Part shown: positions 6,569-23,766 of the stretch, one piece after another
Layout of the letters: the number at the start of each line of letters is the position of its first letter
Numbering within the stretch: position 1 is the stretch's first letter
Origin: a virus
Virus record (IMG/VR): IMGVR_UViG_3300036859_000864
Span: 47,462 to 111,461 of that record
Length of the DNA: 64,000 nucleotides
Reading direction: 5' to 3' (one strand)
Made by a program: the position numbers and the translations under genes
Notes under the pieces: model-generated
The model's input: the letters and a program-made list of their open reading frames with translations, nothing else
What the model was told of the DNA's origin: nothing
Database searches by the model: none

Positions 6569-7194
6569 TGAATCCCTACGTCGTCGATCAAGAGGGTCAC
6601 GGGTCCGGAAGCGTTCAACGCGAATCCGAAGATCTGGACGTCTTTCGGAGCGAATCCTGGGGTTGATGGGGCGTCGAAATCGAACTCGAAGCACGTCCAG
6701 TCCCCTGGCGTGAGAGTGATGTCGCGATCGGCTCCGTAGTCGTTTCCGTTCGACACGTAGGCGAGCACGTTGAGGGGACCGCCAGCCTCGAGCTTGAGCC
6801 ACACGGAGCCCCGGCGGCCTTGGAGGTCTCCTAGACTCTCTGGGAGCACGAGCCATCCGTGTGGCGCGTCTGGCGTCTCAAATCGAACGGCCCCGTCGGC
6901 GGCGTGTCCCTCCGGGCTCCAGGTCGCCGTTTCGAGGTAGGGTGGTCGGTACTCCCACTGCTCGAGGCTCTGATCGAAACCCCAGTGCCTCACCAGCCGT
7001 TCTCCGGAGCAGCCGAGCGCGGGCCCGGAGGGCGTGGTGCCGGCGTCTACGCCGCCCTCGCTCGGCGCCCCGCCATCTGGCATCGAGACGCCCCCCTCGG
7101 GCGCGGAGAGCTCGGCTTCGAGCCCCATCGGGTAGTAGCCGATACGCCCGCAACCGAGGGCGAGAAAGGCGGTCAAGAGGCTCATGCGGGGCAT
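6565..7194 (-). CDS. Lipoprotein with jelly-roll carbohydrate-binding-like domain
   Basis: 209 aa. A short signal sequence ends in a lipobox (LALGC, Cys15), followed by a Gly/Pro/Ser linker (~30-55). The remaining ~150 residues resemble CBM or discoidin-type jelly rolls: HWGFDQSLEQWEY at the start, WLKLEAGG and DWTCFEFDFDAPST in the middle, LLIDDVGI at the end. The order GFD...W...DDV is characteristic of such sugar-binding modules in secreted myxobacterial proteins. Likely displayed on the infected cell surface; ligand unknown. An ATG at 7185 is an alternative start. Confidence 0.6.
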   Translation of the reverse strand: MPRMSLLTAFLALGCGRIGYYPMGLEAELSAPEGGVSMPDGGAPSEGGVDAGTTPSGPALGCSGERLVRHWGFDQSLEQWEYRPPYLETATWSPEGHAADGAVRFETPDAPHGWLVLPESLGDLQGRRGSVWLKLEAGGPLNVLAYVSNGNDYGADRDITLTPGDWTCFEFDFDAPSTPGFAPKDVQIFGFALNASGPVTLLIDDVGIQ

Positions 7195-18698: not shown

Positions 18699-19121
18699 CT
18701 ACTCAAGCCCGACCACGACGATGGCCGGGAACTCTGTCGCCTTCAAGTTGTAGAGCGCGACGAAGCGGTGGGCCCCCTCGATGATGAAGGGCCCCTTCTC
18801 GTCGACGCCGATGATCAGCGGGTTGATCTCTCGAGATTCTTCGATCGCGCCAGAGAGCCGCTCGCTTCGCGCGAAGTCGTCGGCGGCGTAGAACACGGAT
18901 CTCGGGCCGCCGAAGTCGGACATCGGTACGACGCGCACACCGGGGAGCGTTTCCGACTCGGCCATGTACCCGTCGATCGAGCTGAGGTTCGGTACGTGAT
19001 CTCGAACCGTCAGGCCGCCGACGACGTCGCCGGCGACCGGGTACCGCGCGCTTGTGCTCGCGATCAGGCCCTCGAGCGACGAGTCGGCGAGCGCGAGTGG
19101 CGCCGCGCCGACCCTGCGGCT
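18699..19121 (-). CDS. ParB/sulfiredoxin-like domain, reached by -1 frameshift
   Basis: 140 codons in the -1 frame relative to the gene at 19064-20422. The C-terminal half has the ParB-N/sulfiredoxin pattern INPLIIGVDEKGPFIIEGAH, then RFVALYNL and FPAIVVV, with the nucleotide-binding EGxHR. Coherent sequence (VPNLSSIDGY, LPGVRVVPMSDFGGPRSVF) extends well upstream of the only ATG (18965), and no ATG, GTG or TTG precedes it in this frame after an in-frame TAG just beyond 19139. The segment is therefore best read as the C-terminal domain of a frameshift product of 574 aa (434+140). An independent 88-aa protein from 18965 is the alternative. Confidence 0.6.
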   Translation of the reverse strand, partial: SRRVGAAPLALADSSLEGLIASTSARYPVAGDVVGGLTVRDHVPNLSSIDGYMAESETLPGVRVVPMSDFGGPRSVFYAADDFARSERLSGAIEESREINPLIIGVDEKGPFIIEGAHRFVALYNLKATEFPAIVVVGLE

Positions 19122-20422
19122 TTTGGGTGGCGACGACTCGACTCGTGCACGCCGGTACCGTTCCTAGCCGCTGCGACGCGCTCGGCGATCTCTCGGTCGC
19201 GGGCGCGTGTGAAGTTGCCTGTCCAGGCCGCCCAAGGGCGCCCCTGAGGCTTGAAGATGTCTACTTGCAACACCGAGTTGCCGGGCTCCCCGGGATGGTG
19301 GACGACCCAAGTTTCGGTCGATGCGTTCAACGTCTTGCTGGGAACGCCAACCCTCAATCGTCGCGCCTCCAAGCCGCCGTCGATGGTGAGCGTCGTCGGT
19401 CCGGAGGCGGGCGCGCCACGACGCGCTTCGCTCGCATGTGACGCAACGTCAGGCACGATTTTCACAGTGTACCCGCGTCCGGTCAGTTCGACTGCGATCT
19501 TGTCCGCTTTCTCGCGCGGGTACGATCGACGGTTCAGCCATCGGATCGGTTGGCCGGTGTCGACGTTGATGATCTTGAACAATGATCCTCTACGAGGCGC
19601 AGCGACCACACCTCGACGCGCTTCGCCGACGCCCCCGCCGCGCATCTCCTGTTTGATCTGCAAGAGCTCGTCCGCGAGCCAATCGCGCGTCTTCGGATCT
19701 TGCAAGGCGCCTTTGAAACCGATCCAAAACTCACGCACCGTCTCGCGTCCGCCTGTCGCCGTCCCGGGCCCGAAAACGCCCCCAGCCAGATCGAGGATGT
19801 CGTTATCGCCGAGGCCCCGCTCCGTGTCCCACACGAGCTGTTGAAGCATGTTTTTCGCGATCACCGTCGCGTCTGACTTCGTCTCGAGCGGGAGCATCTG
19901 AGACGGATCCGCGCGTTCTGCTTCGAGCATCTGCTCGCGGACCCAGTCCATGAAGTATCCGCCTTGGAGTTGATCGTTGGCGTACTGCTCACCGGCGGCT
20001 TCGGCGTTGGGGGCGTCGCCCGTCTCACGTGCGGTCGGAACTCTACGTTTGATCGGCACAGTCGACTCGCCGTAGTAGCGAAACGTCTTTCGCCCCCCAC
20101 CGATATCCACTTCGACGTTACGGTATCCGCGTTGGTCGCTATCGGACACAGAGACTACGGTAGCTTCTCCGGATTTGTCGTAGATGACGTCTCCGACGCG
20201 AAGATCATCCACGTAAATATGCTGATCTCGGCGGCGATCTCTCTTCGCGTTTTCTCGTGTTGTCTTTCGAGTCATCGTGCTCTCCTTCTCGTGTCCTTGG
20301 TAGCCGTGTGAGTAGGCCGCCCGTCCTTGCTTCTCGGCCTTCTGGCGTGCGCCGGGGCCGCAGTAAACCTTCCCGTGGGAGCCCCACTGGTAGCAACCGC
20401 GGCCTCTAGAGTGGACGGGCAT
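19064..20422 (-). CDS. Multi-module phage-type protein, upstream partner of the frameshift
   Basis: 452 aa in frame 0, of which 434 precede the slip site. N-terminal GCYQWGSHGKVYCGPGA module (~9-25), a basic segment, a small beta domain (VGDVIYDKSGEATVVSV), a helical region (~150-260), then two short domains separated by Arg-rich linkers (EARRGVVAAPRR ~267-278; EARRGAP ~332-338). The 18 residues after the slip site are only Arg/Ser/Ala rich and look like read-through of a non-protein frame. The first ~50 residues could be bypassed by an internal ATG at 20275. Function unknown. Confidence 0.6.
   Translation of the reverse strand: MPVHSRGRGCYQWGSHGKVYCGPGARQKAEKQGRAAYSHGYQGHEKESTMTRKTTRENAKRDRRRDQHIYVDDLRVGDVIYDKSGEATVVSVSDSDQRGYRNVEVDIGGGRKTFRYYGESTVPIKRRVPTARETGDAPNAEAAGEQYANDQLQGGYFMDWVREQMLEAERADPSQMLPLETKSDATVIAKNMLQQLVWDTERGLGDNDILDLAGGVFGPGTATGGRETVREFWIGFKGALQDPKTRDWLADELLQIKQEMRGGGVGEARRGVVAAPRRGSLFKIINVDTGQPIRWLNRRSYPREKADKIAVELTGRGYTVKIVPDVASHASEARRGAPASGPTTLTIDGGLEARRLRVGVPSKTLNASTETWVVHHPGEPGNSVLQVDIFKPQGRPWAAWTGNFTRARDREIAERVAAARNGTGVHESSRRHPKAAGSARRHSRSPTRRSRA
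19081..19127 (-). promoter_or_regulatory. Programmed -1 ribosomal frameshift signal
   Basis: On the minus strand the heptamer C_CCA_AAA (19127-19121, spaced by zero-frame codons) fits X_XXY_YYZ. After a 6-nt spacer comes a 9-bp stem, GGGTCGGCG (19114-19106) with CGCCGACTC (19089-19081), eight Watson-Crick pairs and one G-U, around a 16-nt loop. Shifting -1 here leads exactly into the ParB-like frame. All three elements of a canonical signal are present at standard distances. A homopolymer sequencing error at the C3A4 tract is the competing explanation. Confidence 0.6.
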
Positions 20423-20426
20423 AGTC

Positions 20427-21563
20427 CTACCGTCTTCGTGTCGATCGTCGAGCGTTCGGATTGTGCGCGCTGCGCGTCGGGCGCGGTGCCTCGTCCATGC
20501 GCGCGCCTTTGATGCGCGAGCCGCGCGGGTAAAAACCCGCGTTCTTGCCGCGGGCGAGGTCGGTCTGCGCCCGCTCGATTGTCGGAGCCGTGATGTGCGA
20601 GATCACCCGACCGTCTGGGTTCACGACCTCGAACTGTTTCCCGTGCCCCGATTCGCGCGCTCTAGGAGGCGCCTGACGGCCGCCGGAGGGCACGAAACGA
20701 ACGACCCCCCGAACTCGCTCGGCCTCGGTCTTCGCGTCCCCGTAGCTCTTGAACGGGCCGGCGATGACGCGGTTGTGGTTGTCGAGGGCCTCGTAGTCTC
20801 GGACGGCATGGCGCCGAGGGGCTCCTCGCCGGGCTTCGGTGTCTCCAGGGAGGTACATGGCGTTCCGAGGAAGCTGGGCGATGATGCTGCGCGCACCAGG
20901 CCCCTGCGCGTGCCAGTAGCCTTCTTTTTGCCAGACGGTGGCCACGTAGTATCCGTTGTCCGGACACGGGAAGTAGATCCGCGTGTTGGCACCGGCGCCC
21001 GATACATGCGTGGCGCCGTCGACGGTGGCCGCATGCTCGATGAGATCTTGGAGCGTGCCGAAGTCAGAGACACGGTGAGTACGCGACGCTGAACGGCGCG
21101 GGGCTGCGACGACGCCACGGCGCCGACTCTCGCCCACGTGCGCGTCCAGAGGCGACCCGTAGATGAGTGTCTCACCGTCCTCGTCCGGATCGCCGACGTA
21201 CAGATCGAACTCGCCGTACTCGTGGGCGCCGTCTGTCAGCTTGGTCGCGTCCGGCTCGGGCCAGTCGCCGTCCCAAAAGCCGGCGCCGGCGCCGTTGCGC
21301 GTCAGCCAGAAGTCATGACCGGCTAGCTCGAGGTTGCCTCCGATGAGCTCTCCGAAACGCTCTTGGAAGGAAGCACAGTCGGCGATCATCTTGTCGCGTG
21401 TCGCGTCGTCGATGTCTCCGACGTCGTAGTTCTTGTCGAGCGGCTCGCCCCCCTGATCGTCCGAGTTGTCCGAGCTCGCCCAGAGGGCCGTTTCGAAGTA
21501 CGCGCGGGTGAAAGAATCCATGCGCTGGGGCGCACGGGCGGTGTGTCGTCTGCGAGCGGCCAT
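20427..21563 (-). CDS. Conserved phage protein with GHDFWLTRNG domain
   Basis: 378 aa. Residues ~17-140 carry a domain recurrent in phage genomes: FETALWASSDNSDDQGGEPL, then GHDFWLTRNGAGAGFWDGDW, then YGEFDLYVGD. Two further short beta domains follow, divided by Arg-rich linkers (ESRRRGVVAAPRR ~145-157, EARRGAPRR ~243-251) like those in the neighbouring gene. The C-terminus is Arg-rich. Function of the domain is unknown; the modular layout suggests several small domains in one chain. Confidence 0.65.
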   Translation of the reverse strand: MAARRRHTARAPQRMDSFTRAYFETALWASSDNSDDQGGEPLDKNYDVGDIDDATRDKMIADCASFQERFGELIGGNLELAGHDFWLTRNGAGAGFWDGDWPEPDATKLTDGAHEYGEFDLYVGDPDEDGETLIYGSPLDAHVGESRRRGVVAAPRRSASRTHRVSDFGTLQDLIEHAATVDGATHVSGAGANTRIYFPCPDNGYYVATVWQKEGYWHAQGPGARSIIAQLPRNAMYLPGDTEARRGAPRRHAVRDYEALDNHNRVIAGPFKSYGDAKTEAERVRGVVRFVPSGGRQAPPRARESGHGKQFEVVNPDGRVISHITAPTIERAQTDLARGKNAGFYPRGSRIKGARMDEAPRPTRSAHNPNARRSTRRR

Positions 21564-22228
21564 TAGCGTCTCCTCTTGGAGGTTCTGAGCGCAGTTTTCC
21601 TACGCGCGATGCGCTTGCTTCGTTGCGCGTCGGTTTGGGTCAACCGATCGATGTACGACTTGGCGACGATGATCGCCTTCGTTTCAGTGCCGCCGTATCC
21701 GACCTGTTCGGCTTCGACGCCGGTAGCTCCGTTTTCGGATTCGTACGGGCTGTAGACGACGGCGGCGAAGTACCCCTTCTCGCCCTGATGGGGGCGTTCT
21801 TTGGGAGGTACTGGATCGTGATAGACCTCGAATTTGATACCCTTGTACTCACCCGTGTGTTGAAGCGATGCCTTCGGACCGAGCGCGCCGGTGACGAGCG
21901 TCGGAAGACTGGGGGCTTCCTCCTCTTCTTCGCTCATCAAACCGCGAACGAGCTCCTCGACATCTTGCTTGTCTTGGATGGCGGCGATCATGCGTCCGAG
22001 CTGGTCGAGTTCGTGCCACCCGATGCCCCCCAAAGGCTCGAAGCCCATGTCCTCGAGCTCCTCGCCGCCGGGCACGCTTGCGAGAAGTCGGAACACCGTC
22101 GTCGGGTAGTCGTTCGGACCGTGGTCGTAGTTCGGGAGCCACGACCTGAGCTCCGCGATCATGTCGGCGATCGGGGGGCGGGGTTTCGAGGTGTTCGCGT
22201 GCATTCTTCTTCGGGTTGCCATGGTCAT
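21563..22228 (-). CDS. Hypothetical protein with basic ends
   Basis: 221 aa. Arg-rich first 20 residues, helical middle (ELRSWLPNYDHG, ELDQLGRMIAAIQDKQDVEE), an acidic stretch (MSEEEEEAP), a beta segment (KFEVYHDPVPPKE, YFAAVVYSPYE) and a Lys/Arg-rich C-terminus. ATG 6 bp upstream of a second ATG; either could serve. No family recognised. Confidence 0.55.
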   Translation of the reverse strand: MTMATRRRMHANTSKPRPPIADMIAELRSWLPNYDHGPNDYPTTVFRLLASVPGGEELEDMGFEPLGGIGWHELDQLGRMIAAIQDKQDVEELVRGLMSEEEEEAPSLPTLVTGALGPKASLQHTGEYKGIKFEVYHDPVPPKERPHQGEKGYFAAVVYSPYESENGATGVEAEQVGYGGTETKAIIVAKSYIDRLTQTDAQRSKRIARRKTALRTSKRRR

Positions 22229-23766
22229 CGTCTCCTTCGCGGGCTGCGCCGCTCTTGCATTCCGTCTTCGGGCCTCGAGCTCCACACGAGTTCACCGTCG
22301 CGTGTGATTACCGTCACGTAGTCCCCTTCGAACGTCGGGTCTCGGAGCAACTTCTGCGCGGCGCGGATTGCTGCTTGCTCATCGTTCAACGAGAACGTTT
22401 CGCCACCACCGCCGCCCAAACCTCCGACGATGGTTCCGTCGCTGTACGCCCCCTGCACGACGTAGTCGCCATCGTCGACATGGGCGTTCGAATCTTTCTT
22501 ACCCCAAATGGAGGCGTAACCGCTCGTTGAGCTCGCGATCTCATCGTTGCGGTCTTTCGGCCACCAGTCGATGCCCTGAGCGGCTTCCTTGACCGTTTCG
22601 ATCGGCAACTCCATATCGTGCGCTACGGCACGGATGGCGGAGTCGGGGCTGACGTGTTCTTCGGTGGTCGGTACCCTACCCCCGAGATCGGTCAGCTCGT
22701 AGCCGTCCTTCTCGAGGTCGGCCTCTACGCCGGACTCGGTTCGCTCGCTCTCCAGATCACCGTTGACGGCCACGGCGTCTCCGAACGAAGCGACACCGAC
22801 GAGCGAATCTGAATCGAAGCCATCTCGAGCGGCGTCGTCCGCGTGCTGATCGCCGATCGTGCTCCACGTCTGCGCAGCGCCGATGTCGGCCATTTCCTCG
22901 ACTTTCTTTTCGAGGTTGCTTCGGATGTCGCTGTACCCTAGGACGTCGTCCTTGAACGATTCGTCTTCGTCTGCGAGGTACTCGCGGAGTGTTGCGGTCG
23001 CGCCGCTCGACCACTTCACTTCGTGATCGGGAAGATCTCCAGACCAGCCGGAAGGCCCCTCGTCGACACCAGTGCCGTAGTCCATGAGCGCGCTCGCGAT
23101 CGTGAGCGCGCGCTGAGTTGGTGTGAGATCCTCGAGCTGGTTGTGATCCATCCCGATGAAGCTCATGACGTTCGAGATGTTCTCCTTGTTCGTGAGATCG
23201 TCGAGATCGTAGTACGCCTCGCGGGTCCAAAACGGGAAGCCGGCTTCGGCCGCTTCCGTGTCGCCGACGTACTCACGCACCGGTTGGATCTTGAAGAGCT
23301 CGAGGGCTCTGCCGTCGCTCTTGGCGATGGTGCCGCCGTGCGCACCGGGATCCATGTCGCCGTCGATCTGCTCCCACATCGGCATGTCCGGGATCTGAAT
23401 TTCCAGCTTCCCGGGGATGTCAGGGAAGCCCGGCAGGCTCGGTTGGTGGCGGCTCCTCACCCTCCGTCCTTTTCCACGCTCGTGCATCTCCCCGCCGCTC
23501 GCCGCACCCTCGTCCGGGCGCGAGAACCGCTCGAGGTGCCCCGCGTCGGCCGTGAACGGATCGGCCGTCCTCGAGCGCCCGCGTCCCGTCGAGCCCGGAG
23601 GCCAGATGCGGATCGAGCGCGCCTTGGCCTCGTAGCTGTACGGCGTGCCGCTTCCGGGGCGCAGCATGGTCGGCCGTTGATCCATCGGTGCCTGGTAGTA
23701 GAGCGGGCCTCCCGTGCGCGCGTACGCGAGAACTTCAGGCCACGACTTGAAGGCTACAAGGTTCAT
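22225..23766 (-). CDS. Large hypothetical phage-type protein
   Basis: 513 aa. The N-terminal ~85 residues contain GGPLYYQAPMDQRPTMLRPG and TADPFTADAGHLERF, a short conserved motif pair in large-phage hypothetical proteins. The remainder is acidic, with repeated small helical units and a C-terminal beta section (GDYVVQGAYSDG, GDYVTVITRDGELVWS). Ends in SPRRRR, like its neighbours. No enzymatic motif seen. Confidence 0.55.
   Translation of the reverse strand: MNLVAFKSWPEVLAYARTGGPLYYQAPMDQRPTMLRPGSGTPYSYEAKARSIRIWPPGSTGRGRSRTADPFTADAGHLERFSRPDEGAASGGEMHERGKGRRVRSRHQPSLPGFPDIPGKLEIQIPDMPMWEQIDGDMDPGAHGGTIAKSDGRALELFKIQPVREYVGDTEAAEAGFPFWTREAYYDLDDLTNKENISNVMSFIGMDHNQLEDLTPTQRALTIASALMDYGTGVDEGPSGWSGDLPDHEVKWSSGATATLREYLADEDESFKDDVLGYSDIRSNLEKKVEEMADIGAAQTWSTIGDQHADDAARDGFDSDSLVGVASFGDAVAVNGDLESERTESGVEADLEKDGYELTDLGGRVPTTEEHVSPDSAIRAVAHDMELPIETVKEAAQGIDWWPKDRNDEIASSTSGYASIWGKKDSNAHVDDGDYVVQGAYSDGTIVGGLGGGGGETFSLNDEQAAIRAAQKLLRDPTFEGDYVTVITRDGELVWSSRPEDGMQERRSPRRRR

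Follow-up and report, generated by a model that had tools for sequence, protein, structure and literature searches.

A very likely programmed -1 frameshift cassette shared by modular phage proteins

Phage -1 (or +1) frameshifts are known to extend capsid and tail proteins by Ig-like domains at the C-terminus, as in A2, T3, A118, A500 and PSA (PMC5009743), and the G/GT frameshift of lambda-type tail assembly chaperones is established (PMC5009743; PRFect, PMC10885494). ParB/Srx domains of the DdrB-like kind are found in the polyvalent proteins that phages and conjugative elements encode (Iyer et al. 2017, PMC5512222), and frameshifting is not mentioned in that survey. The locus described here lies in a 64-kb stretch of viral DNA (called the window below; bases 47,462-111,461 of the 111,461-bp uncultured virus record IMGVR_UViG_3300036859_000864). 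Our comparison points to a programmed -1 ribosomal frameshift cassette of ~50 nt, carried by modular phage proteins. We consider this reading very likely (probability ~0.9), although it rests on comparative evidence only: slippage itself is inferred, and no expression, ribosome-profiling or proteomic data stand behind it.

An earlier note, made from the sequence alone, had placed the heptamer C_CCA_AAA, a 6-nt spacer and a 9-bp stem (19081-19127, minus strand) at the end of a long frame, with a conserved domain opening in the -1 frame without an upstream start and with products of 452 and 574 residues. All of this held, and the sequence was exact. On the minus strand, the slippery heptamer (19127-19121) is in frame with a 452-aa ORF (20422-19064) and is separated by the spacer GCCGCA (19120-19115) from a putative stimulatory hairpin (19114-19081). 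The 9-bp outer stem of this hairpin pairs 19114-19106 with 19089-19081, and its inner part has 5 bp around a single bulged C. Folded as a 41-nt segment it reaches -25.5 kcal/mol, a stability equaled in 0.05% of the 2,212 coding segments of the record. The 0-frame stop codon TGA follows at 19064-19066. An open -1 frame spans 19163-18699, without any ATG, GTG or TTG before ATG 18965, which already lies within the downstream domain. A slip at the heptamer would add an extension of 140 aa plus stop (19121-18699), giving a predicted fusion of 434 + 140 = 574 aa beside the unslipped product of 452 aa. When the whole window was scanned for frameshift geometry (X_XXY_YYZ with Y = A or T, a 0-frame stop within 30 codons and a -1 frame open for at least 60 codons past that stop), three sites fitted, and only C_CCA_AAA at 19127-19121 was followed by a strong hairpin.

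The frame break, heptamer, spacer and stem are kept in six relatives in all, so that the proposal of programmed frameshifting made in the earlier note is supported and can be extended to a shared cassette. Using a degenerate pattern and a covariance model, the cassette was found in 7 of the 17 phage records examined, exactly once in each (the window, G001, G004, G005, G006, G007 and G016), and these seven records come from different metagenomes. Its anatomy is constant: the slippery heptamer, GCCNNNN, a hairpin with a GG[U/C]CGG stem, a short Arg-rich 0-frame tail and a long -1 extension. The domains in the -1 frame fall into two ParB-like and two winged-helix types, and the upstream modules differ as well. 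The nearest relative, G001 (IMGVR_UViG_3300019880_000001), shares the gene neighborhood, the frame break and the conserved heptamer; its upstream module is 87% identical to that of the window over 105 matched residues. Its -1 frame, of 358 codons, encodes an additional segment of ~230 aa and then the ParB-like domain of the window at 90% identity. In G004 a different ParB-like domain follows the heptamer and stem, G005, G006 and G007 have winged-helix domains in the -1 frame, and in G016 a perfect 12-bp stem leads straight into the ParB-like module present in the window. Identity is 0.60-0.80 within the cassette, while in most pairs the flanks stay at a background of ~0.46-0.62. Protein homology led to G001, G004 and G016 with no use of the heptamer; the search that first returned G005, G006 and G007 included the heptamer in its query, and a protein search recovered the same genes. 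The seven cassettes are homologous and share ancestry, and are not seven independent inventions.

The heptamer is conserved beyond coding need. The 0-frame tail requires only CCN-AAR after a free third base, and the heptamer bases are not constrained by the -1 reading, since the slip comes only after both codons have been read. Even so, the three synonymous positions (C, CCA, AAA) are invariant in 7/7 cassettes. In these loci, C is used at the third base at ~0.39, CCA makes up 0.10-0.21 of Pro codons and AAA 0.26-0.50 of Lys codons, and synonymous variation is seen in neighboring codons of this tail (AAA/AAG, AGG/CGG, CGA/CGC/CGT). We ran the pattern CCN AAR GC.....GG.CGG.G, free at two synonymous heptamer positions, over the 17 related phage records. 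It matched exactly the seven cassettes, all with CCA AAA, and the reversed control gave one match.

The seven hairpins start 6-7 nt past the heptamer and have energies of -19.8 to -25.5 kcal/mol; at most ~0.7% of coding segments of the same locus fold as stably as the respective cassette hairpin. In the 7-pair outer helix, 89.8% of the cells pair, versus 4-51% in slid registers, and two hairpin pairs show compensatory change with both sides altered. In a shuffle control, the covariation statistic was reached by 23/500 shuffles, a modest result. In G006 and G007 the hairpin is formed in a shifted register with another 3' partner, and in G004 the 41-nt segment, when folded without constraint, has a minimum-energy structure that is an alternative to the shared stem. 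Given the moderate shuffle margin, the register shift and the competing fold, covariation is therefore supportive and not decisive.

The -1 extensions are under purifying selection, with dN/dS values of 0.14-0.23: 0.142 between the window and G001, 0.148 between G005 and G006, and, in comparisons with G016, 0.231 (window) and 0.177 (G001). Across the seven cassettes, the earliest possible -1-frame start past the heptamer is 24-61 codons downstream. In the window, the extension carries a module at 19082-18702 (minus strand; alignment A2) whose assignment to the ParB/sulfiredoxin superfamily, suggested earlier, held by sequence and by predicted fold. Profile search against the PDB matched ParB/Noc (E 8e-5), the AF2 model has a mean pLDDT of 89, and Foldseek retrieved sulfiredoxin (Srx) and ParB structures with a probability of 1.0 for the leading hits.

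The 452-aa ORF is itself modular: an N-terminal MPVHSRGRGCYQWGSHGKVYCG module is followed by the A1 module ('DWLADELL'), by two more modules split by EARR linkers and by the basic tail, and these modules occur separately in related phages. The A1 module (DQL..YFMDWVREQM...DWLADELL; approximate bounds 19610-20011, minus strand; alignment A1) marks the gene family of this ORF in 16 viral loci. No Pfam match was obtained for the 0-frame protein, and a search for the upstream module in bacterial genomes returned nothing. The Arg/Ser end of the long frame had been called meaningless, and this claim failed. Relatives end in a conserved PKAxRSxRRR-stop tail, of which the end in the window is a divergent form, and this tail resembles the Arg-rich ends of neighboring modular genes. 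The neighboring modular genes at 20427-21563, 21563-22285 and 22225-23766 (minus strand) likewise end in RRR or RRRR, and EARRG-type linkers recur between modules in the proteins of this gene cluster. The last module of 22225-23766 also resembles the last 0-frame module of the cassette gene of G004. Separately, an in-frame ATG at 20275 (minus strand) inside the 452-aa ORF has a good Shine-Dalgarno-like AAGGAG, and the nearby peptide is conserved in G001; it is possible that this ATG is an internal start separating the N-terminal CYQWGSHGK module.

Several searches and candidates led no further. All relatives are metagenomic contigs, with none from a cultured phage; blastn and tblastn against GenBank phages detected no relative, and a scan of IMG/VR with the exact-junction pattern gave no further record of the phage in the window. 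A heptamer-free scan for the stem pattern returned 38 loci, with the context present only in three cassettes already known. A site in L072 (10411-10445; RNA model E 0.0075, CCCAAAG) was set aside as its context is not homologous, and L078, considered as a -1 overlap, has no heptamer and a -1 reading that resembles antisense sequence. An upstream Shine-Dalgarno-like GAGG precedes some cassettes, is absent in the window and G001, and is not claimed as part of the cassette. In L083/L084 (~6690-6720), an A1-module gene breaks frame at GACCCCCTGAC and has a coherent -1 continuation (DKKQNDIYVRARGLFMF...) without a cassette; this break may be an indel, as the sequences of L083 and L084 do not differ over 3 kb. 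A relaxed scan for heptamer and stem returned 59 loci, and outside the family only loci such as L112 (2021, minus strand), L121 (5420) and L125 (6511), unrelated phages in which an ORF ends in a frameshift-like manner at C_CCA_AAA. The next gene in L112 is tape-measure-like, an arrangement known from tail chaperone loci. These three look like tail-chaperone frameshifts that have the same heptamer by convergence. The independent heptamer ahead of a tape-measure-like gene in L112 suggests that C_CCA_AAA is a usable phage slippery site.

The anatomy of the cassette, its conservation in seven phages, the synonymous-position constraint, the stem and selection in both frames are results of the comparison; the events on the ribosome are a proposal. 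The hairpin 6-7 nt downstream would stall ribosomes reading CCA-AAA, and a fraction of these would slip back by one base (P site from CCA to CCC, A site from AAA to AAA). Unslipped ribosomes would terminate 11-23 codons later, after the basic tail, and slipped ribosomes would yield a longer protein carrying an additional domain (ParB/Srx or winged-helix) at its C-terminus. What is established about -1 frameshifting implies that the majority of ribosomes should finish at the Arg-rich tail and some should add the domain. That slippage occurs, its efficiency, the ratio of the two forms and the importance of this ratio are all inferred. A plausible role, also inferred, would be that a minority of the subunits in a complex carry a nucleic-acid/NTP-binding domain in place of the Arg tail. 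The cassette sits in the linker between modules and has been kept while upstream modules and -1-frame domains were exchanged, and would act as a portable junction that makes the C-terminal domain optional and sub-stoichiometric. A bolder reading, which we regard as likely, is that the cassette is transferable, a ~50-nt signal inherited as a unit at the module junctions of shuffled phage proteins, so that whatever C-terminal domain lands behind it may become optional, at a set ratio, in exchange for the Arg-rich tail.

One objection is that the ORF is truly continuous and was broken by a recent frameshift mutation or by an indel introduced in sequencing or assembly. A separate indel does exist in one relative: in G016 (L085 ~650-690) the frame breaks within the A1 module upstream of the cassette, near the contig end. 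The ParB-like module is also found in one continuous frame in L003, L005, L006, L007 and L009, an outcome that could have counted against the frameshift. These genes, however, all have other upstream modules and no cassette, and the module is therefore mobile rather than wrongly broken in the window. Similarly, L075/L077 (5974-6648) join the A1 module and the winged-helix domain of G005/G006 in one uninterrupted frame, a constitutive counterpart of the frameshifted form. Against the indel stand the same break and heptamer in seven records of different metagenomes, as well as the conservation of both the 0-frame tail and the -1 continuation, and we regard it as all but excluded.

Termination at the 0-frame TGA with restart at an overlapping -1-frame CTG would instead yield a separate domain protein. 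The 0-frame stop is indeed C-TGA in 6/7 cassettes (19064-19067 in the window), so that a CTG overlaps it in the -1 frame and could be a weak reinitiation site. CTG is, however, a poor start, and the easily reached ATGA or GTGA is used by no cassette; in G016 the stop is TAG, without a CTG, and the CTG of the window falls inside the first helix of the module. As this model also leaves the invariant heptamer and the hairpin unexplained, we find it very unlikely. Slippage of the polymerase during transcription would have the same protein outcome as ribosomal slippage. A downstream hairpin at a 6-7 nt spacing, however, fits the ribosomal event, and runs of A4 and C3 are too short for efficient polymerase slippage, leaving this explanation hardly tenable. 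Programmed -1 ribosomal frameshifting remains our preferred reading.

With polyvalent proteins, the cassette proteins share shuffled modules and ParB/Srx-fold domains in phage multi-module proteins, but no named polyvalent domain (ArdC, MPTase, DdrB-ParB etc.) was recognized in the 0-frame part by Pfam/PHROGs; they resemble this group, and membership is not established. With lambda-like G/GT they share a -1 frameshift that is driven by a heptamer and lies close to where a phage ORF ends. The gene and its neighborhood differ, however: a DUF2935 gene lies next downstream and there is no tape measure gene, and with no tail match in PHROG/Pfam, the cassette gene does not qualify as a lambda-type chaperone. 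The earlier note had held, as far as its author knew, that frameshifting to add a ParB-like domain was undescribed; the literature searched gave no contrary report, and nothing on ribosomal frameshifting with ParB, phage and a heptamer. Frameshifted mobile Ig-like domains are known, and the same literature has yielded no case of ParB-like or winged-helix domains added via a shared cassette. The cassette is compact and testable, and offers a route to hidden -1-frame domains missed by gene callers in viral metagenomes. As in the Ig-like cases, a phage protein would gain a mobile domain at its C-terminus, in sub-stoichiometric amounts, through programmed frameshifting. Here, in contrast, ParB/Srx-like or winged-helix domains are added, the protein that carries them is no recognized virion protein, and different modules have the frameshift cassette itself in common. 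The phage frameshifts described so far are mostly located in tail chaperone or capsid genes, each bound to its own gene; the persistence of the same signal while modules on both sides change suggests that recoding can serve as an evolutionary adapter for domain shuffling.
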